From NCBI GenBank assembly GCA_015663245.1, contig DQSN01000097.1, positions 1-39,870 of the forward strand: 39,870 nt of DNA. Reading direction: 5' to 3'. Within the stretch, counting starts at the first letter, position 1, and each line of letters begins with the position of its first letter. Origin of the DNA: Leucothrix mucor (GTDB lineage: Bacteria; Pseudomonadota; Gammaproteobacteria; Thiotrichales; Thiotrichaceae). Positions 15,584-36,920 of the stretch are shown here, one piece after another. A program made the position numbers and the translations under genes. A model generated the notes under the pieces. The model ran no database searches and had not been told where the DNA came from. It saw only the letters and a list, made by a program, of their open reading frames with translations.

Positions 15584-16582
15584 TTATCTGCGTCCATAAC
15601 TATGTGAATGACTTCTGTCCTGATAAGGATGAGAATGTGTTGTTGCACGAGTTAAAGAATTAGCTGGGTGAGTATGGCGTCCGCCAGCTGCCGAACTACG
15701 ACCGCTAGAAGGGCACTCATGGCGATGGATTTTGTTGCCACCGTTATGTGAATGAGCAATTGCGCTTACACATTGGCTTTTGCCGTGTGTATGCTTAAGA
15801 CTTCCACCATAGTATGTACGTTGTCTTGTAACTTGTTGCTGGCGTCCCTTTCCTTTGCAGCTATAGCTATGTTTATGCCCAGCCTTTGCGCCTGCATGAG
15901 AATGTGAAATAGAGCGCGTACATCGATTTGCAGGATGAGTATGGTTGCCAATATTATTGGTTGTAGCTGCTACTCTGCGATAGTTACCATAAATATCAGT
16001 ATTTGTTCTCGGTGCAGGAGGGTTGTAGGCTACAGGTGCAGGGTTATAGTATTGCTGTTTTGTAGTGCGCGGCTTTGCAGTTTGATTGCTTGCAACTTGT
16101 TGACGTCCATTGCCTTTACAGCTATAACGATGTGAATGACCTGTTGGTCCAGCATGGGTATGCGAGATAGAGCGAGTACATCTGTTAGCAGGATGACTAT
16201 GGGTGGATCCTGCTTTATTGTTCTGTGCGTAATTTACATAAGTATTATTTGATGCAGGGGCAACACTTGCTTCTGCAATGGTTAAGTAGCGTTTATTAAC
16301 CCAGCCTATTTGTCCATCCCATTTGATTTTCACCCAAGTAGAACCATTTACATCTTTCTCATTTCCCGTGAGAGTAATATTGCTACTATTAGCAGGGATT
16401 TCGTTGATAACACGATACCCCGTTCCTGCGCCACTGCGTATGTTTAAAGCATCCCAGTTAGCAATGTTTACAATTTTATAATTTTGATTGTTGCTATAAG
16501 CTACAGCTGTTTGCATTGCTCCAGCACTAAAAGCCAAAGTAGTTGCTAAAACAACTGATTTTAAATGATGTTGTATGTTCAT
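15584..16582 (-). CDS. Exported SH3b protein with four His/Cys-rich repeats, probably metal-binding
   Basis: 332 residues with a signal peptide (cleavage probably after MQTAVA, residue 28). Residues about 34-103 form a bacterial SH3 domain (DALNIRSGAGTGYRVINEIP, GQIGWVNKRYL). The rest holds four modules at 128-155, 214-242, 264-290 and 303-327 with the pattern HxH, four residues, Cys, five residues, HxH, six residues, HxH, then Cys. Modules 1 and 2 share HPANRCTRSISH. Module 3 keeps all ligands with changed intervening residues, and module 4 has lost both Cys (the first to Ser). Paired HxH motifs suggest zinc, copper or nickel binding, and the SH3b domain suggests attachment to peptidoglycan. 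I do not recognise a named family for the repeat. A spaced AAGGA site precedes the ATG. It is a stand-alone gene. Confidence 0.8.
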   Translation of the reverse strand: MNIQHHLKSVVLATTLAFSAGAMQTAVAYSNNQNYKIVNIANWDALNIRSGAGTGYRVINEIPANSSNITLTGNEKDVNGSTWVKIKWDGQIGWVNKRYLTIAEASVAPASNNTYVNYAQNNKAGSTHSHPANRCTRSISHTHAGPTGHSHRYSCKGNGRQQVASNQTAKPRTTKQQYYNPAPVAYNPPAPRTNTDIYGNYRRVAATTNNIGNHTHPANRCTRSISHSHAGAKAGHKHSYSCKGKGRQQQVTRQRTYYGGSLKHTHGKSQCVSAIAHSHNGGNKIHRHECPSSGRSSAAGGRHTHPANSLTRATTHSHPYQDRSHSHSYGRR

Positions 16583-16921
16583 ATAACGATAATCCTTTAC
16601 CTATTTAAAATGTAGAAAACCCAATGAAGACAGTTGTTTAAAGGGGGAGTGTCTAGTCTTGATATGGATATTTTATTGATCAAATAATTAAACATAATTC
16701 TATAAGATAAAACCTATGAAGGTACATATAAGTTTGCTTATAGATGTATCTGTATAATATAGCTCAGATTATAGGAATAAGCTTGAGAATCAAGCTGTTT
16801 TTATTAAATAACTTTCAAAAAGGACTAAAAGGTGTTGTTATTACTAATGTTTTTGAATAAAAAAAATCTATAAAGTGTAGTAAAAAGCAGAATATGTGTA
16901 TTTTTCCACTGAGGATGCTTG
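16583..16921. other. AT-rich gap of 339 bases between two minus-strand genes
   Basis: No credible reading frame. It must contain the promoter of the His/Cys repeat gene (start 16582), but no convincing -35/-10 pair was found on the minus strand. A hairpin with a T-run (see 16780-16803) is the only clear structure. Confidence 0.6.
16780..16803 (+). terminator. Orphan terminator-like hairpin
   Basis: AGCTTGA (16780-16786), loop GAA and TCAAGCT (16790-16796) form a perfect seven-pair stem followed by GTTTTTATT on the plus strand. No plus-strand gene lies upstream between 15328 and here, so either a short unannotated plus-strand transcript ends at it or it is chance in AT-rich DNA. Confidence 0.35.
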
Positions 16922-17530: not shown

Positions 17531-18499
17531 ATGTCACATGGAGTAACTAATAACAGTACAACAGTAGTTCAGCCGCCGAGTCCTTCTACAAATAATTCTA
17601 GCCAGCTACTCTCTAACAGTACCTCCCCACGTAGTGTATTTTCTAATGCATCAAAAAACATGGGTATTCTTAATTCTGGAGGGGGAAGTGAGGCACGAGA
17701 TGATGCAACGTTGAGTATAGGTCTGCTGCTTAATAAAGTTTCTGATGATTTATCATCTGAGGCTAAACATCAAAAGCCTGATGTTGCGTCTACCGCTATT
17801 CAAATAGAGCAGGATATACAAAAAATAAGTGATGATATAGAAGAGCGTTCGGATGGGAGTAATCAGCCTGATGTTTCATTAGTTGCTGCCAAGGTAGAAG
17901 AGGGTATACAAGAAATAGCTAATAACTTAAGTGCAGGTGGTCAAGATATAAAGCAGCTCTCTAAAGAGAGTCGGCTGGTCGAAGTTTCGTCTGTTGTTAC
18001 TAAAATAGAGCAGGATATACAAAAAATAAATGCTAACTTAGAGACTGACTCAGCAGGAGGCTTGGGTGAGTCTAAGAATGCAGAGATAGCTTCAATTATT
18101 TCTAAAATAGAGCAAGATATACAAGAAATAAGCGGTAATTTAGATATGAATAGTGATGGTCAATCAGGAGATACGTTAGCTGATGATTACTTTATTCTTT
18201 CCTTAATATCGAGCTTGCTAGGTGTACTTGAGGAGTTAACAAGTAATAGTAGTGGCGTGTCAAATCCTAGTTCGTACTATACTGTTGGTAGCCCAGTATA
18301 TAGTCAAGAGCTTGTGGATCAGTTTAATTTATTGCTTGAATTTTTAGGTTTATTTGGCGAGGCGTTGCAAGATAAAGGGGATACTAGGGTTGAGGATATT
18401 ATCAGTTTATTTGACCAGCAACTTGAAGAGCAGAGATATAGAGCGAGACAATCTCGCAGTATGATTACTCAAACAGAATATCTGAATCGGAAGAGATGA
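17531..18499 (+). CDS. Protein of unknown function with four 21-residue amphipathic repeats
   Basis: 322 residues, not recognised. No signal peptide. The first 55 residues are Ser/Thr/Asn/Pro-rich and likely disordered. A 21-residue unit of the type EVSSVVTKIEQDIQKINANL recurs at about 84-104, 114-134, 151-171 and 185-205, separated by acidic Ser/Gly-rich spacers of 9-17 residues; a weaker relative may sit at 58-75. Each unit reads as an amphipathic helix. A further hydrophobic helix (FILSLISSLLGVLEELTSN, about 221-239) and another (LVDQFNLLLEFLGLFGEAL) follow, and the end is Arg/Gln-rich. It is very acidic overall before the tail. GGAG lies eight bases before the ATG. The shape suggests a structural or adaptor protein; a substrate of a secretion system is possible but there is no direct evidence. 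Confidence 0.75.
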   Translation: MSHGVTNNSTTVVQPPSPSTNNSSQLLSNSTSPRSVFSNASKNMGILNSGGGSEARDDATLSIGLLLNKVSDDLSSEAKHQKPDVASTAIQIEQDIQKISDDIEERSDGSNQPDVSLVAAKVEEGIQEIANNLSAGGQDIKQLSKESRLVEVSSVVTKIEQDIQKINANLETDSAGGLGESKNAEIASIISKIEQDIQEISGNLDMNSDGQSGDTLADDYFILSLISSLLGVLEELTSNSSGVSNPSSYYTVGSPVYSQELVDQFNLLLEFLGLFGEALQDKGDTRVEDIISLFDQQLEEQRYRARQSRSMITQTEYLNRKR

Positions 18500-24723: not shown

Positions 24724-24806
24724 GGAGGATGACCGAGAATGGTGAGCCTCGCGAAATACGGGAAATCGAAGCGACACTCTCCCCGTATTATGTAAGGGCT
24801 CTTTAT
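24724..24806. repeat. Diverged single arm of a related element, abutting the first
   Basis: From 24721 the sequence CTAGGAGGATGACCGAGAAT, followed by GCGAAATACGGGAAA, lines up with the left arm of the 24559-24723 element (CTAGGAGGCTGTCCGAGAAC, then GCGAAAATCACAGAAA). The two ends meet at the palindrome TCCTAGGA. It also contains its own hairpin, AATACGGG (24758-24765) with CCCCGTATT (24781-24789). It leads directly into cobU and must carry or transmit the promoter of the cob genes. No cobalamin riboswitch motif was seen. Confidence 0.45.
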
Positions 24807-25334
24807 ATGAATACACTCATTTTAGGTGGTGCCAAGTCAGGCAAGAGTTTATTTGCAGAAACACTAGCGATACAGTCGGGCAAAAAATTAGTCTATATTG
24901 CCACTGCTCAAGCAGGTGATAATGAAATGAAGCAGCGTATTTTATTACATCAACAGCGCCGTGCTGAACAGAATGTGGTGTGGCTGAATATTGAGGAGCC
25001 GACGGCTTTATCCAAGGTTATCAAGCAATACTCTACAAATAATCGTCTGATTTTAATAGATTGTTTGACTTTGTGGCTGAGTAATCTATTGTTCAGCCTC
25101 AATGAAAAGCAGCGACAAATGGAAATTGATGCTTTGCTTGAGTGTTTGCCCAGTTGTCAGGCTGATATGTTTTTTGTAAGTAATGAAACAGGCTTAGGTA
25201 TTGTTCCAATGAACCAATTAAGTCGCCAGTTTATTGATCTGTCGGGTAGTTTACATCAACAGATAGCGCAAGTTTCAGACCGAGTTATTATGACCATTGC
25301 GGGATTGCCGCTAGTATTGAAAGGAAGTCTTTAA
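24807..25334 (+). CDS. cobU: Adenosylcobinamide kinase / adenosylcobinamide-phosphate guanylyltransferase
   Basis: 175 residues. CobU phosphorylates adenosylcobinamide and transfers GMP to give adenosylcobinamide-GDP, the substrate of CobS. It has the P-loop GGAKSGKS near the N-terminus, the R-R-x-E region (HQQRRAEQNVVW), LILIDCLTLWLSNLL and SNETGLGIVPMNQLSRQFID. I start at 24807 because MNTLILGGAKSGKS is the family N-terminus; an upstream ATG at 24729 would add 26 residues translated from the repeat arm. The stop overlaps the cobT start (TAATG). Confidence 0.95.
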   Translation: MNTLILGGAKSGKSLFAETLAIQSGKKLVYIATAQAGDNEMKQRILLHQQRRAEQNVVWLNIEEPTALSKVIKQYSTNNRLILIDCLTLWLSNLLFSLNEKQRQMEIDALLECLPSCQADMFFVSNETGLGIVPMNQLSRQFIDLSGSLHQQIAQVSDRVIMTIAGLPLVLKGSL

Positions 25335-26389
25335 TGTCGTTAGAGTGGTGTGCAGGCTCGGTTTTTCGTTTGGATGAAAAATCAAAAGATGCTGCGGAAA
25401 AAAGACAAGCAATACTGACTAAACCTGCGGGTTCTCTTGGTGTATTGGAAACATTGGCTATCCAATTTTCAGCATGGCAGGGAGTGATAAAGCCTGAGCT
25501 TGAGAATGTATATATTAGTATTTTTGCTGCGGATCATGGTGTAGCCGATGAGGGTGTTTCTGCTTTCCCACAAGTGGTAACTGGTGAAATGGTTAAAAAC
25601 TTTGTTCGTGGTGGTGCAGCAATTAGTGTGCTGGCAAAAGCGAATGGAGCAGCGTTAGAAATTATAGATGTTGGTGTGAAAAACTTGCCGAAGTTAGATA
25701 ATGTAATTTCAGCTTGTGTGGCGAATGGAACACAAAATATCGCTCACCACGATGCAATGACTAAAGAGCAATTGCAGCAAGCATTCCAAGTTGGTAAAGA
25801 GGCTGCGGAGCGCGCCAAAGCTAATCATGCTCAGTTATTTATTGGTGGCGAAATGGGTATTGCCAATACCACCAGTGCAACAGCGGTTAGTTGTCAATTA
25901 TTAGGCTTTCTTAATGTTGAGGAAATGACAGGAGCAGGGACTGGCTTGGATAAGGTGGGTATTCGACATAAGTCAAAAGTCATCAGCTCAGTTATTGCTC
26001 GTTATGCGCAAAAATATGAGCAAGACAAAAATCCACTAACCGTTGTGTGTGTCATGGGCGGCTTTGAAATAGCAGCTTTAGCGGCGAGTTATATACGATG
26101 TGCGCAACTAGGTGTACCCGTATTGGTCGATGGTTTTATTACAACGACTGCCGCTTTGTTAGCCATCAAAATTAATAAAGACGTGGGGCAGTGGATGTTA
26201 TTTTCGCATTGCTCTGCTGAAGTTGGGCATACTAAAATATTGGCTGCTATCAAGGTAAAGCCTCTGCTTAATTTAGAAATGCGTCTTGGTGAAGCAAGCG
26301 GTGCAGCAACGGTTCTCCCTATTATAAAAAATGCACTTGCCTTACATAACAATATGGCGACTTTTGCTGAAGCAGAAGTCTCGAATTAA
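25334..26389 (+). CDS. cobT: Nicotinate-nucleotide--dimethylbenzimidazole phosphoribosyltransferase
   Basis: 351 residues. CobT makes alpha-ribazole phosphate from dimethylbenzimidazole and nicotinate mononucleotide for the lower ligand of cobalamin. Family marks: LTKPAGSLGVLE, AADHGVADEGVSAFPQVVT, GGEMGIANTTSATA, GAGTGLD, and LEMRLGEASGAATVLP, which holds the Glu expected to be catalytic. Translation is coupled to cobU by a one-base overlap. Confidence 0.96.
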   Translation: MSLEWCAGSVFRLDEKSKDAAEKRQAILTKPAGSLGVLETLAIQFSAWQGVIKPELENVYISIFAADHGVADEGVSAFPQVVTGEMVKNFVRGGAAISVLAKANGAALEIIDVGVKNLPKLDNVISACVANGTQNIAHHDAMTKEQLQQAFQVGKEAAERAKANHAQLFIGGEMGIANTTSATAVSCQLLGFLNVEEMTGAGTGLDKVGIRHKSKVISSVIARYAQKYEQDKNPLTVVCVMGGFEIAALAASYIRCAQLGVPVLVDGFITTTAALLAIKINKDVGQWMLFSHCSAEVGHTKILAAIKVKPLLNLEMRLGEASGAATVLPIIKNALALHNNMATFAEAEVSN

Positions 26390-26408
26390 TCGATAGATTT
26401 ATAGAGTA

Positions 26409-27020
26409 ATGATGCCAAAAACAACTATTATAGATCTGCTTCGTCATGGCGAAGTGGAGGGCGGTGAAATTATCCGTGGTAGTACCGATGATAAGCTGAC
26501 AGATGAAGGCTGGTCGCAAATGCAAAATGCCTTGCAAGGTGATGTTAAATGGGACGTTATTATCTCATCATCTCTATTGCGTTGTGCTGAGTTTGCAGAA
26601 TCATTAGCCGATCAAGAAGATGTGAAGTGTGAAATCATTGAAGATTTGGAAGAAATTGACTTTGGTGATTGGGAAGCTTGTACGCGTGACGACCTAATGA
26701 AAGATGATGATGGTCTTCTCAAGCGTTGGTGGACATCCCCGACAAAACAAACGCCACCGCAAGGCGAAGATTTTCATGATTTTCGTGCGCGCGTACTAAA
26801 AAGCTTGAAAAAAATCACGAAAGACCATGAAGGTAAGCGTATTTTAGTGATCACACATGCGGGTGTTATTCGTGTTATTTTAATGCATATACTCGGTATG
26901 CAGGAGGAAAATTTATTTCGTTTGAATGTTGATCATGCCAGTGTTTCCAGCATTCGTATGTTTCAGGACGATACAGGAGAATGGGGTACACTGATTTCCC
27001 ATGGTTGCCCCACGATATAA
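26409..27020 (+). CDS. cobC: Histidine phosphatase family protein, probably alpha-ribazole phosphatase
   Basis: 203 residues with the phosphoglycerate-mutase-like signature LLRHGEVEGGEIIRGSTDDK and the second catalytic His in VITHAGVIRVIL. Position between cobT and cobS supports removal of the 5'-phosphate from alpha-ribazole phosphate, but the superfamily is broad. Two adjacent ATGs (26409 and 26412) could both serve as start. A 265-base gap follows before cobS. Confidence 0.85.
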   Translation: MMPKTTIIDLLRHGEVEGGEIIRGSTDDKLTDEGWSQMQNALQGDVKWDVIISSSLLRCAEFAESLADQEDVKCEIIEDLEEIDFGDWEACTRDDLMKDDDGLLKRWWTSPTKQTPPQGEDFHDFRARVLKSLKKITKDHEGKRILVITHAGVIRVILMHILGMQEENLFRLNVDHASVSSIRMFQDDTGEWGTLISHGCPTI

Positions 27021-27073
27021 CTCAAAGAATATTCATTCTAAAATATAAATATCCGAGTAAGTGATCATACAAG

Positions 27074-27144
27074 GGTCGGTGAAGTTTATATAAGCGATCA
27101 AGTTTGAGCATCAATTATGGTCGGTTTGCAGAGCTGCACCGACC
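27074..27144 (+). promoter_or_regulatory. Competing hairpins in the cobC-cobS gap
   Basis: GGTCGGT occurs twice (about 27074-27080 and 27119-27125), and only one partner, ACCGACC (27138-27144), follows. The downstream copy forms a hairpin GGTCGGT-TTGCAGAGCTGC-ACCGACC whose loop can pair further (TGCA/TGCA). The upstream copy (GGTCGGTG) could pair with CACCGACC instead. Mutually exclusive pairing is typical of attenuators, but only TATTAAAT follows and no U-run is present. The rest of 27145-27285 is AT-rich and should contain the cobS promoter. Confidence 0.35.
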
Positions 27145-27285
27145 TATTAAATAACAAATAGTTTAGAACTGGTACAAACAAAAACAGAGTCCCTAACACA
27201 TTAAAGATACAATATTACTCATATCTACCGAATACTATATTAGTAGGTATCTATATAAGACTATAATAATTCTAGGCTAAAATTC

Positions 27286-28041
27286 ATGTCCCCTTTTATA
27301 AAGCCATTTTTTATCGCGCAGACCTTTTTAACGCGTATACCTACACCCAAAATGTCGAGGATTAGTGAAAAAGAACTTTCACTCTCAATTCTCTATTATC
27401 CTGTCATTGGCTTGTGTATTGGTCTGTTCCTAACGATCCTTAGTTACCTTTTTCCCTTATTTGTTGGTGATGATGCGCTTTCTGTTGTTGCTGTCATTAT
27501 CGTTATGGCTTGGGTTCTAGTCACGGGTGCTTTACATTTGGATGGGTTGGCAGATACTGCTGACGGTTTTCTTGGTGGGCAGGGAAGCACTGAACGAACA
27601 CTAAAAATAATGAAAGACCCTGTTTCTGGTCCCGCAGGTATAGCGAGTATATTTTTAGTTTTAATGCTTAAATACTCCGCGATTTTGGCAATATTAGAAT
27701 CTGATTTAAGCTTATGGGGAATACTTCTAGCCCCCTTCATTGCGAGAGCTTTGGCAATTGGTTTATTAACCTATACGCCAGTTTCTCAAGAGGCAGGTTT
27801 AGCATTCGACTTGAAAAAAATAGATTTTCCTGAACTGGTGGCAACGATTTTATTAGTGGTCTCCGTTGTGGTTTATTTTGCAACGAATATTTATGTTTTA
27901 ATCACACTTGCTTTATTGGTGTATGGAATACGTCACTGGGCAATGTCCCGATTAAAAGGGATTACTGGAGATGTCCTAGGTCTGAGTATTGAAGTAATAG
28001 AAGCCCTATTTTTGGTGATGCTCGTTTTAGCTTTAGTCTAA
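27286..28041 (+). CDS. cobS: Adenosylcobinamide-GDP ribazoletransferase (cobalamin synthase)
   Basis: 251 residues, a polytopic inner-membrane enzyme joining adenosylcobinamide-GDP and alpha-ribazole in the last step of cobalamin assembly. Motifs include FLTRIPTPK near the N-terminus, the acidic DGLADTADGFLGG (about 86-98) that binds metal, RTLKIMKDPVSGPAGIASI and GITGDVLG near the C-terminus. With cobU, cobT and cobC it completes nucleotide-loop assembly; no corrin-ring synthesis genes are in the window, so this looks like a salvage set. It converges on the fthC-like gene 12 bases away. Confidence 0.95.
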   Translation: MSPFIKPFFIAQTFLTRIPTPKMSRISEKELSLSILYYPVIGLCIGLFLTILSYLFPLFVGDDALSVVAVIIVMAWVLVTGALHLDGLADTADGFLGGQGSTERTLKIMKDPVSGPAGIASIFLVLMLKYSAILAILESDLSLWGILLAPFIARALAIGLLTYTPVSQEAGLAFDLKKIDFPELVATILLVVSVVVYFATNIYVLITLALLVYGIRHWAMSRLKGITGDVLGLSIEVIEALFLVMLVLALV

Positions 28042-34003: not shown

Positions 34004-34036
34004 TTGACGTTTTTATATGTTATGTTATAACATAAC
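34004..34036 (+). promoter_or_regulatory. Zur-type operator overlapping the znuACB promoter
   Basis: GTTATGTTATAACATAAC (34019-34036) is a perfect 18-bp palindrome and matches the general form of gammaproteobacterial Zur boxes (GTTATA-TATAAC core). It overlaps a promoter with -35 TTGACG (34004-34009), a 16-base spacer and -10 TATAAC (34026-34031), so bound Zur-Zn would block RNA polymerase. The start codon of znuA is about 350 bases downstream, with a palindromic element in between. Identification rests on motif and context. Confidence 0.75.
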
Positions 34037-34145: not shown

Positions 34146-34305
34146 AGGGACGTAGTTAAGAATAAATCATCCATCTTACTTGTCTTTTTGCTCCTGCTAA
34201 AACGCTCTCAAATCGTTGCATAGAATAACTATGCACCTTTTGATATCGCTTGAGCAGGAGCAAAAAATCGGTGCAATATGGACGGTTTATTATTACTACC
34301 TCCCT
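34146..34305. repeat. Palindromic MITE-like element between the Zur-type promoter and znuA, 160 bp
   Basis: Left end AGGGACGTAGTTAAGAATAA and the complement of the right end AGGGAGGTAGTAATAATAAA align, and both arms continue through ATCCAT/GTCCAT to GCTCCTGCT/AGCAGGAGC (the TTTTTGCTCCTGCT block at about 34185-34198 is exactly inverted at 34251-34264). The centre is the small palindrome GCATAG-AATAA-CTATGC. It has no reading frame. It is related to the 13095-13235 element. It lengthens the znu 5' untranslated region and could form a very long hairpin in the RNA. Apart from it, 34037-34145 and 34306-34384 show only the znuA ribosome binding region. Confidence 0.75.
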
Positions 34306-34384: not shown

Positions 34385-35281
34385 ATGAAACGTTTATTTA
34401 CAATCTTAACAATTTGTTTTTTTAGTCTATTGCTATCAACTCAATGGGCATTTGCCAATGATAAACCAACGGTTTTTGTCAGCATAGTTCCCCAGAAATT
34501 TTTTGTGCAACAAATTGGTAAAGATCATGTCAATGTAGAAGTTATGGTAAAGCCTGGAGCTAGTCCAGCAACCTATGAACCTAAGTCATCCCAGATGAGG
34601 CAACTTGCCTCAGCCAGTGCATACTTTTCTATCGGCGTACCCTTTGAACATGCTTGGCTTGATAAAATCAGCAAAGTCAATCCTGAAATGAAGGTTGTTC
34701 ACACCGATGAAGGAATCACTAAGTTGACTATGAGCAAGAAGAAAAAGAAGGCTAAGGAGAAGGAGCATAAAGAGAAATCACACGACCACAAAACAGGACT
34801 TGATGTACACATCTGGCTTTCCCCTTTATTGGTGAAAATACAAGCAGCTACAGTAACCGATGCGCTTGTTAAAATCCTCCCTGAGAAAAAAGCACTGTTT
34901 CAACAGAACTTTGATTTGTTTGCTAAAAAAATTGATACGCTCGATAACGATTTACACACTATCTTTAAAGAGAAGAAAGGCATGAAGTTCATGGTTTTTC
35001 ATCCTTCTTGGGGATACTTTGCCCATGATTACGGCTTACAACAGGTTGCGGTTGAGGTTGAGGGAAAGAATCCTAAACCTGCACAACTACAAAAAACGAT
35101 TGAAAAAGCAAGGAAAGATGATATTCATGTCATTTTTGTACAACCGCAATTTTCCACCAAAAACGCTACAGTGGTAGCAAGGGAAATCAAGGGAGAGGTT
35201 ATTCCCATTAATCCATTGGCTGAGGATTGGCTTTCCAATATGAGAGTTGTTGCTGATAAATTCCAAAGTGCCTTACGATAA
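34385..35281 (+). CDS. znuA: Zinc ABC transporter substrate-binding protein, ZnuA-like (cluster A-I)
   Basis: 298 residues with a signal peptide (cleavage probably after QWAFA, residue 24). Family marks: FVSIVPQKFFVQQIG, the charged Lys/His loop (KKKKKAKEKEHKEKSHDHK, about 119-138), LDVHIWLSP and FHPSWGYFAHDYGLQ, which supply metal-binding His residues. Odd point: the usual first ligand motif (Asp-Pro-His-Xaa-Tyr-Glu-Pro) reads SPATYEPKSSQ, lacking that His. The same variant is known in part of the family, so zinc rather than manganese is inferred mainly from the Zur-type operator and znuC/znuB. It delivers metal in the periplasm to the membrane transporter. Its stop overlaps the znuC start by one base (TAATG). 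Confidence 0.88.
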   Translation: MKRLFTILTICFFSLLLSTQWAFANDKPTVFVSIVPQKFFVQQIGKDHVNVEVMVKPGASPATYEPKSSQMRQLASASAYFSIGVPFEHAWLDKISKVNPEMKVVHTDEGITKLTMSKKKKKAKEKEHKEKSHDHKTGLDVHIWLSPLLVKIQAATVTDALVKILPEKKALFQQNFDLFAKKIDTLDNDLHTIFKEKKGMKFMVFHPSWGYFAHDYGLQQVAVEVEGKNPKPAQLQKTIEKARKDDIHVIFVQPQFSTKNATVVAREIKGEVIPINPLAEDWLSNMRVVADKFQSALR

Positions 35282-36081
35282 TGTCTACACCTTTGCCAGC
35301 GCCTGCCCCTATTGTTGAAATATCTGATTTATGCTTTTCATATGGTGAGAAAGATATTTTACATAATATCAATCTCACCCTATATGAAGGAGATTTTGTT
35401 GCCATTATTGGGCCAAATGGTGGTGGAAAAACTACACTCTTAAAAATGGTTCTCGGCTTGCTGAATCCAACCCATGGTATGGTCAAAATTCAAAATCAAA
35501 AGCCACGTTCCCATGCCGTTTCCATAGGCTATGTGCCACAATATATTAATCATAATCTTAGCTTTCCAGCAACAGCTCTGGACATTGTTTTAATGGGGAA
35601 GCATGAACCTGCTCGAAGATTCCAGCGTGGCAATGCAAAGCAAGACCGAAAGACTGCCTTAGCAGTCATGGATAAACTTGGGATAGCTAATTACTCCAGT
35701 CGAAAAATAGCGACTCTTTCTGGTGGGCAGAGACAGCGGGTTCTCATTGCTCGGGCGTTGATTTCAGATCCTCAACTGCTCGTACTGGATGAAGCAACGG
35801 CATCCATCGACACGAAGGGGCAGACTGACTTTTATGCGCTTCTCAAAGAGCTGAACAAAGAACTCACCATTCTGATGGTCACCCATGATCTTATGATGGT
35901 TTCATCCTATGCAAAATCAGTTGCCTGTCTCAATCGAACATTGCATTACCATCAGTCATTTGACTCTACTGCAGAAGTACTCAATGCTTATCATTCTTGC
36001 TCCGTCGAGGAGATGTGTCCAGTTGGAGTTGTTGCAGGCATCAAAGAACCTAAAAACCAGCAGGATGAAAAGACATGCTAG
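35281..36081 (+). CDS. znuC: Zinc ABC transporter ATP-binding protein
   Basis: 266 residues, cytoplasmic ATPase of the ZnuABC importer. Walker A GPNGGGKT at 44-51, signature LSGGQRQRVLIARAL, Walker B LLVLDEATASID and the switch His in MVTHDLMM. The C-terminal extension contains a Cys/His cluster (YHSCSVEEMCPVG) as in other members of the family. Translation is coupled to both neighbours: one-base overlap with znuA and seven bases with znuB. Confidence 0.94.
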   Translation: MSTPLPAPAPIVEISDLCFSYGEKDILHNINLTLYEGDFVAIIGPNGGGKTTLLKMVLGLLNPTHGMVKIQNQKPRSHAVSIGYVPQYINHNLSFPATALDIVLMGKHEPARRFQRGNAKQDRKTALAVMDKLGIANYSSRKIATLSGGQRQRVLIARALISDPQLLVLDEATASIDTKGQTDFYALLKELNKELTILMVTHDLMMVSSYAKSVACLNRTLHYHQSFDSTAEVLNAYHSCSVEEMCPVGVVAGIKEPKNQQDEKTC

Positions 36082-36920
36082 ACGTTCTCCAGTTTGAATT
36101 TATGCGTAACGCACTGCTAGCGGGTCTTCTTGCCAGCATTAGCTGCGGCGTTATCGGAACGCTGATTGTGGTTAATCGTCTTGTCTTTTTAGCGGGTGGA
36201 GTTGCACATAGTGCTTATGGAGGTATTGGTTTGTCCTTATATTTCGGCTGGCCTTATATGATTGGAGCAACTTTCTTTTCCCTTGGTTCTGCAATGATAA
36301 TGGCTGCCGTCACACTTAAATCCAAACAGCGCGCTGATACCATTATAGGGGTTATGTGGGCGGTGGGAATGGCGACAGGCATTATTTTGATCGATATGAC
36401 TCCAGGCTATAATGTTGAATTGATGAGTTACCTGTTTGGGAGTATTTTGAGTGTTCCCCAGAGTAATCTTATTGTAATGGCGGGTCTTACAGCGATGAAT
36501 ATAGCCCTTGTTAGCTACTATTATAAAGATTTACTTGTCATGTCCTATGACGAAGAGTTTGCTAGAGTGCGAGGGATACCCGTCAAGGCGCTTTACTTTA
36601 TGCTAATCGGCATGGTTGCCGTGACAGTGGTTATTGTGGTTCAGGTTGTTGGCCTTATTCTTGTTATTGCTCTTTTGACCATTCCTCCTTATATCGCTGA
36701 AAAATATACCTCATCACTACTACAAATGATGGTTGCCTCCAGTATTCTTGGAATGATATTTATCAGTACTGGGCTTTGGATTTCTTATGTTAGCGACCTT
36801 ACTTCAGGTGCGACTATCATTCTTGTCGCAGGGATCGGATTTCTCATGTCGCTCCTGTTTGATAGAGTCATTTTGATGCAACAGAGGAAACTCTGGTTGA
36901 AAGCTCACAGGATTGACTAA
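36075..36920 (+). CDS. znuB: Zinc ABC transporter permease
   Basis: 281 residues with about eight membrane helices and the ABC-3 family sequence: LLAGLLASISCGVIGTLIVV at the start, FLAGGVAHSAYGGIGL, DTIIGVMWAVGMATGIIL, the cytoplasmic coupling region SYDEEFARVRGIP, and VVQVVGLILVIALLTIPP. It forms the inner-membrane channel for znuA-delivered metal. The start overlaps the end of znuC. It ends 88 bases before the convergent DUF3299 gene. Confidence 0.94.
   Translation: MLDVLQFEFMRNALLAGLLASISCGVIGTLIVVNRLVFLAGGVAHSAYGGIGLSLYFGWPYMIGATFFSLGSAMIMAAVTLKSKQRADTIIGVMWAVGMATGIILIDMTPGYNVELMSYLFGSILSVPQSNLIVMAGLTAMNIALVSYYYKDLLVMSYDEEFARVRGIPVKALYFMLIGMVAVTVVIVVQVVGLILVIALLTIPPYIAEKYTSSLLQMMVASSILGMIFISTGLWISYVSDLTSGATIILVAGIGFLMSLLFDRVILMQQRKLWLKAHRID

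Follow-up and report, generated by a model that had tools for sequence, protein, structure and literature searches.

The 39,870-nucleotide stretch of Leucothrix mucor DNA analysed here (contig DQSN01000097.1; hereafter the window) carries on its minus strand, at 15584-16582, a gene for a protein with paired His residues in a recurring arrangement. The locus raises two questions: whether this repeat belongs to a family already described, and what the protein does for the cell. The Thiotrichaceae are sulfur oxidisers, and their surroundings can be low in free metal, which sulfide precipitates.

The SH3b protein and its His-pair modules

The gene, supported by its open reading frame, a Pfam match, and orthologues in the genus, begins with ATG and encodes a predicted exported SH3b protein of 332 amino acids with four His-pair modules; all of its features lie on the minus strand. 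Residues 1-28 (16499-16582; MNIQHHLKSVVLATTLAFSAGAMQTAVA) read as a Sec signal peptide, and AF2 places a helix over residues 4-19. The SH3b domain follows at residues 44-100 (16283-16453), with a match to PF08239 (SH3_3) of 37.1 bits against a gathering score of 27 (E 3.7e-9); solved bacterial SH3b chains match the same domain in a PDB sequence search, and in NCBIfam the score of TIGR04211 on the protein lies far under its cut-off. Upstream of the start codon, a conserved leader with a ribosome-binding site (16583-16606; AATAGGTAAAGGATTATCG) is mainly what the aligned upstream regions of eight orthologues have in common. Elsewhere in the window, 17531-18499 encodes a protein of 322 aa that contains internal IEQDIQKIS-type repeats and matches nothing in Pfam.

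The module spans about 29 residues, with three HxH pairs and one Cys pair, and its consensus is near HxHPANxCTxSIxHxHPNGxxxHxHxYSC; P4, T9, and Y27 are the conserved positions other than His. Module 1 (residues 128-155; 16118-16201; HSHPANRCTRSISHTHAGPTGHSHRYSC; profile match 46.5 bits) and module 2 (residues 214-242; 15857-15943; HTHPANRCTRSISHSHAGAKAGHKHSYSC; 52.9 bits) follow the pattern HxHPANRCTRSISHxH(x6 or x7)HxHxYSC. Module 3 (residues 264-290; 15713-15793; HTHGKSQCVSAIAHSHNGGNKIHRHEC; 22.7 bits) has its second Cys at an earlier place than modules 1 and 2, and the C-terminal module 4 (residues 303-331; 15590-15676; HTHPANSLTRATTHSHPYQDRSHSHSYGR; 47.8 bits) contains no Cys and keeps all three HxH pairs. 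The modules of the window protein thus combine three HxH at fixed spacing with P4, T9, and Y27, at 22.7 to 52.9 bits. The initial annotation had described four such HxH/Cys modules, the fourth devoid of Cys with its His pairs intact; the four modules and the Cys-less fourth agree with the sequence, but the 'HxH-C' ending that it gave is approximate, as the last Cys stands three residues past the last pair in modules 1 and 2 (HxH-x-Y-S-C) and one residue past it in module 3. Both the shifted-Cys variant of module 3 and the Cys-less last module are kept in all orthologues of the gene.

Within the last 225 residues each of the 24 His belongs to one of 12 HxH pairs, versus a mean of 2.4 pairs and a maximum of 10 in 20,000 composition-preserving shuffles, and because of this the array is not due to chance; at least one module appeared in just 0.2% of 20,000 such shuffles. 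Once mature, the protein is strongly basic (pI about 10.4), with three acidic residues in the last 225. In a full-length AF2 model the SH3b domain alone is confidently folded and the array falls below 50; a single module modelled with 82 aligned sequences reaches a pLDDT of 65, with the first two His pairs placed, at low confidence, on two short strands. Metal sites are often built on an HxH carried by a strand, as in cupins, carbonic anhydrase, and amidohydrolases. AF2 ignores metals, and the array is predicted to be disordered in the metal-free state.

Distribution of the module and architectures of its bearers

A profile built from an alignment of 82 modules finds about 280 copies, by addition of the counts for each genome; 51 of 63 Thiotrichaceae genomes have the module, and all eight genera sampled are represented. 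The wider search, with 369 genomes sampled at class level and 398 at phylum level, gave no credible copies in the sampled genomes of other families; the two marginal matches (G184 and G282) are partial, one lying in a frame only 32 residues long and the other in a frame of odd composition in L046, and are dismissed as chance. The module is therefore restricted to one bacterial family within the sampled phylum; beyond the phylum, the restriction refers to one genome scan with the window protein and to exact peptide patterns, which would miss distant copies. Plasmids, phages, and viral contigs gave no matches, and no His-rich repeat from Thiothrix came up in literature searches. Of the records that the genome scan found, two bear Thiotrichaceae titles; another, QOAQ01000105.1 (L009), titled Aquificaceae bacterium MAG 28, is seemingly the same 12,273-base contig as one from the window's own genus (G008:C46), so that its Aquificaceae title looks wrong.

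The initial annotation knew of no named family for the repeat, and this holds across Pfam, NCBIfam, PHROGs, and PDB sequences, in which no model or entry matches the module. The better PDB matches of the whole protein fall on its SH3b domain and the remainder are mostly designed armadillo proteins; a DUF1771 (PF08590) match, which the window protein lacks and only two of 19 relatives show, is spurious and attributed to chance. To judge by these searches, the module forms a separate family that no existing model describes.

Three kinds of protein bear the module: SH3b proteins, lipoproteins, and lipoproteins that also have a peptidoglycan-binding domain; a lipobox-like motif occurs in 36 of 64 module proteins, and PG_binding_1 accompanies the module in five of 19 relatives. 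As read from their sequences, all of these architectures are envelope-directed. The number of modules per protein ranges from one to six with the His pattern unchanged, and the last module is often Cys-less across relatives. One relative (L080:2157-3662, G010) is a 501-aa protein whose three modules are spaced by long Gln/Ala-rich repeats. The initial annotation had the array fixed to the cell wall by the SH3 domain; attachment to the envelope is supported by the SH3b domain together with the lipobox and peptidoglycan-binding domains of relatives, but SH3b alone is no proof of wall binding.

Conservation of the His and Cys residues

Selective conservation of the His pairs, proposed from the single sequence, is borne out among eight orthologues, in which 162 of 164 His comparisons are identical in the presence of 44 synonymous codon differences; the two mismatches probably reflect misalignment of one orthologue at module 1, which it does not have. 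Identity is complete in the 40 Cys comparisons, with 15 synonymous codon differences, and falls to 66% at other module positions and 47% in the linkers. In 64 relatives, 1128 of 1211 His lie within modules, which for this count were located by a His pattern. Since modules were first picked by their His pattern, His invariance in module alignments is partly built in; the orthologue comparison is free of this bias because whole genes were aligned. On this evidence, selection on the module falls almost exclusively on the His and Cys.

The Cys behave as a pair. Both standard Cys occur in 133 of 183 modules, neither in 48, and one alone in two, so that 181 of 183 are consistent with paired behaviour; shuffles give about 72 mismatched modules and never under 52, although the 183 modules are related by descent and do not represent 183 independent events. 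The window protein itself follows this rule, with both Cys in modules 1-3 and neither in module 4. Since they come and go together in this way, the two Cys are very probably joined in a disulfide. In four of the modules that lack the standard pair, Cys stand at two different positions (CHSH and HCH), a related arrangement is found in a degenerate module of the window's own genome (L062), and proteins of genus g2 carry HCH, KCHSH, and HKHVYGC. Relocated pairs of this kind are what a movable disulfide would look like. As the pair is gained, lost, or moved together while the His stay, it looks like a structural disulfide and not a required metal ligand.

Gene neighbourhoods, regulation, and probable function

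The neighbours of the window gene, kdsB and a DUF498 gene, are partly kept within the genus and have no metal link. In genus g5, a DUF4198 gene is followed by a module lipoprotein gene in six genomes (gap of 121-203 bp in the five measured), and in all six this pair is divergent from a gene for a HupE_UreJ_2 protein. The DUF4198 proteins of the six genomes share as little as 42% identity; since all six belong to one genus, the arrangement may go back to one event and have been kept since. The window's own genome has a DUF4198/HupE pair with no module gene adjoining. A DUF4198 protein has been found to bind nickel with a Kd of 18 nM; for the Ang-1 domain of a HupE/UreJ-2 protein, binding is at 74 nM with copper and 220 nM with nickel (PMC12537917). 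By analogy, the g5 gene order suggests nickel or copper for the sister lipoproteins only.

A further association is that of the peptidoglycan-binding module lipoprotein with a secreted DUF4846-like protein, near which it is encoded in 19 genomes, spread over six genera and two genomic settings (for example, L061:7263-8534); the match of this neighbour to DUF4846 (PF16138) is weak and below the cut-off. Two candidate metal links were rejected: CobU beside the SH3b proteins of genus g8, a possible tie to cobalt that occurs in one genus only and is divergently transcribed, and a NiFe hydrogenase, whose large-subunit gene adjoins a single-module SH3b gene in one genome (G013; L079:5758-8326) and is not kept there in another (G030; L092). 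Within the window, genes that by eye are cobU, cobT, cobC, and cobS form a row reading as cobalamin lower-ligand genes (24729-28041).

The window also contains a znuA-znuC-znuB operon (34385-36920; PF01297, 1.7e-66; PF00950, 4e-72), and its one clear Zur-like palindrome (TGTTATGTTATAACA / TGTTATGTTATAACATAAC, at 34018) lies about 350 bp upstream of znuABC. With up to three mismatches allowed, no Zur box was found near the module gene of the window, a box of the E. coli type being assumed; for the same type of box, in about 0.98 Mb of loci a module gene has a site nearby in one case only, a weak one with two mismatches. If the box is of the E. coli type, this speaks against simple zinc-starvation control of the window gene. 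The window and the eight neighbourhoods searched contained no riboswitch or member of another RNA family. A small inverted-repeat element (34192-34266; TTTTTGCTCCTGCT...AGCAGGAGCAAAAA) lies between the Zur-like site and znuA, and a similar stretch (GTTGCGTAGAACAACTATGC) is present upstream of the L066 orthologue, so the genus may possess it as a mobile or repeated element.

The metal site or storage function proposed by the initial annotation is still the best reading, with the gene order of g5 tying sister proteins to metal families, but for the window protein we infer metal binding and regard a metal role as likely. Our preferred account, to which we give somewhat better than even weight, is that the array is an envelope-anchored, disulfide-clamped device for metal capture or buffering. 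The protein would be exported, as its N-terminus suggests, and its SH3b domain probably retains it in the periplasm; the three H-x-H pairs of each module would supply six imidazoles for a divalent transition metal, perhaps for one or two ions per module, and a disulfide would staple the module wherever both Cys are present. Such an array would provide fixed multi-site capture or buffering of periplasmic metal, kept near the wall within reach of proteins for uptake or maturation; the candidate metals are nickel, copper, and zinc. Several points count against this account: the DUF4198/HupE link concerns a sister lipoprotein in one genus and not the window gene, the DUF4198/HupE pair of the window's own genome has no adjoining module gene, the window gene has no Zur-like box nearby, and disorder is predicted for the metal-free array. 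A more specific version, in which an undescribed, family-specific mini-domain, having three His pairs and a disulfide both optional and movable, forms arrays on various envelope anchors that serve as a periplasmic (probably nickel) reservoir loading DUF4198 and HupE-type importers, is offered tentatively and is itself rather doubtful.

Other readings assign the His pairs a different role. The modules could act as a polyanion or wall adhesin, in which basic His-rich repeats bind lipopolysaccharide, polysaccharide of the sheath or wall, polyphosphate, or DNA and hold the envelope together, the charge of the His pairs being pH-dependent and any metals incidental. The pI of the mature protein, the variety of envelope anchors among module proteins, and the possibly wall-acting DUF4846-like protein that is the commonest kept neighbour of the peptidoglycan-binding form all fit this idea; charge alone, however, needs no exact H-x-H spacing, and Lys or Arg would substitute for the His that are kept in 162 of 164 comparisons, and the g5 DUF4198/HupE link is left unexplained, so we consider an adhesin unlikely. 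Metal might instead serve as glue only, folding the module together with the disulfide in the style of structural zinc, and the folded module would bind another partner and neither buffer nor traffic metal. That the module is small and disordered in the metal-free prediction, that it occurs in one to six copies with a constant His pattern like a modular binding domain, and that P4, T9, and Y27 could form a partner surface would suit such a role, which is nonetheless improbable in view of six His per roughly 29 residues, more than one four-ligand structural site employs, of the wide variation at solvent-exposed positions, and of the DUF4198 link, which points to metal traffic in one sister group at least.

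Least probable is a Zur-controlled scavenger for zinc starvation, comparable to AdcA or ZnuA accessory proteins. Periplasmic proteins rich in His often take part in zinc uptake, and the window itself contains znuABC, but, with an E. coli-type box assumed, the Zur-like site at 34018 precedes znuABC and not this gene, and one weak two-mismatch site is all that the loci have near a module gene.

The capture or buffering that we favour has parallels in described systems. Streptococcal Pht proteins are surface proteins with repeated His motifs that are proposed to bind zinc and pass it to a transporter component (PMC3842936). The module proteins are like them in carrying repeated His motifs on surface or envelope proteins; however, the Pht motif HxxHxH is absent from the window protein and present in two of 64 relatives, Pht proteins have no paired-Cys module, and the window protein has no Pht match in Pfam. 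SilE has been described as an intrinsically disordered molecular sponge (PMC5008109), and the window protein resembles SilE and PcoE in being exported, disordered without metal, and furnished with several metal sites per chain, features that in its case are predicted. It differs in having no MxxH or HxxM, its His forming strict pairs in anchored disulfide modules, and searches against the models and sequences of Pfam, NCBIfam, and PDB gave no SilE/PcoE match. DUF4198 and Ang-1-HupE/UreJ-2 proteins share periplasmic metal binding with the proposed array and neighbour module lipoproteins in one genus, but their fold and ligand, an N-terminal His brace, are different; module proteins would be partners at most and not members. 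With SH3b proteins (PF08239) the window protein shares its N-terminal SH3b domain, whereas the His-pair array lies outside any SH3b family model.

His-rich envelope proteins that buffer metal are already known, but the repeat described here lacks a family model; as a small repeatable unit, the module lends itself to experiments on the retention of scarce metals by bacteria outside the inner membrane. Placed by sequence with neither the Pht proteins nor SilE, the window protein may resemble one or the other by function.
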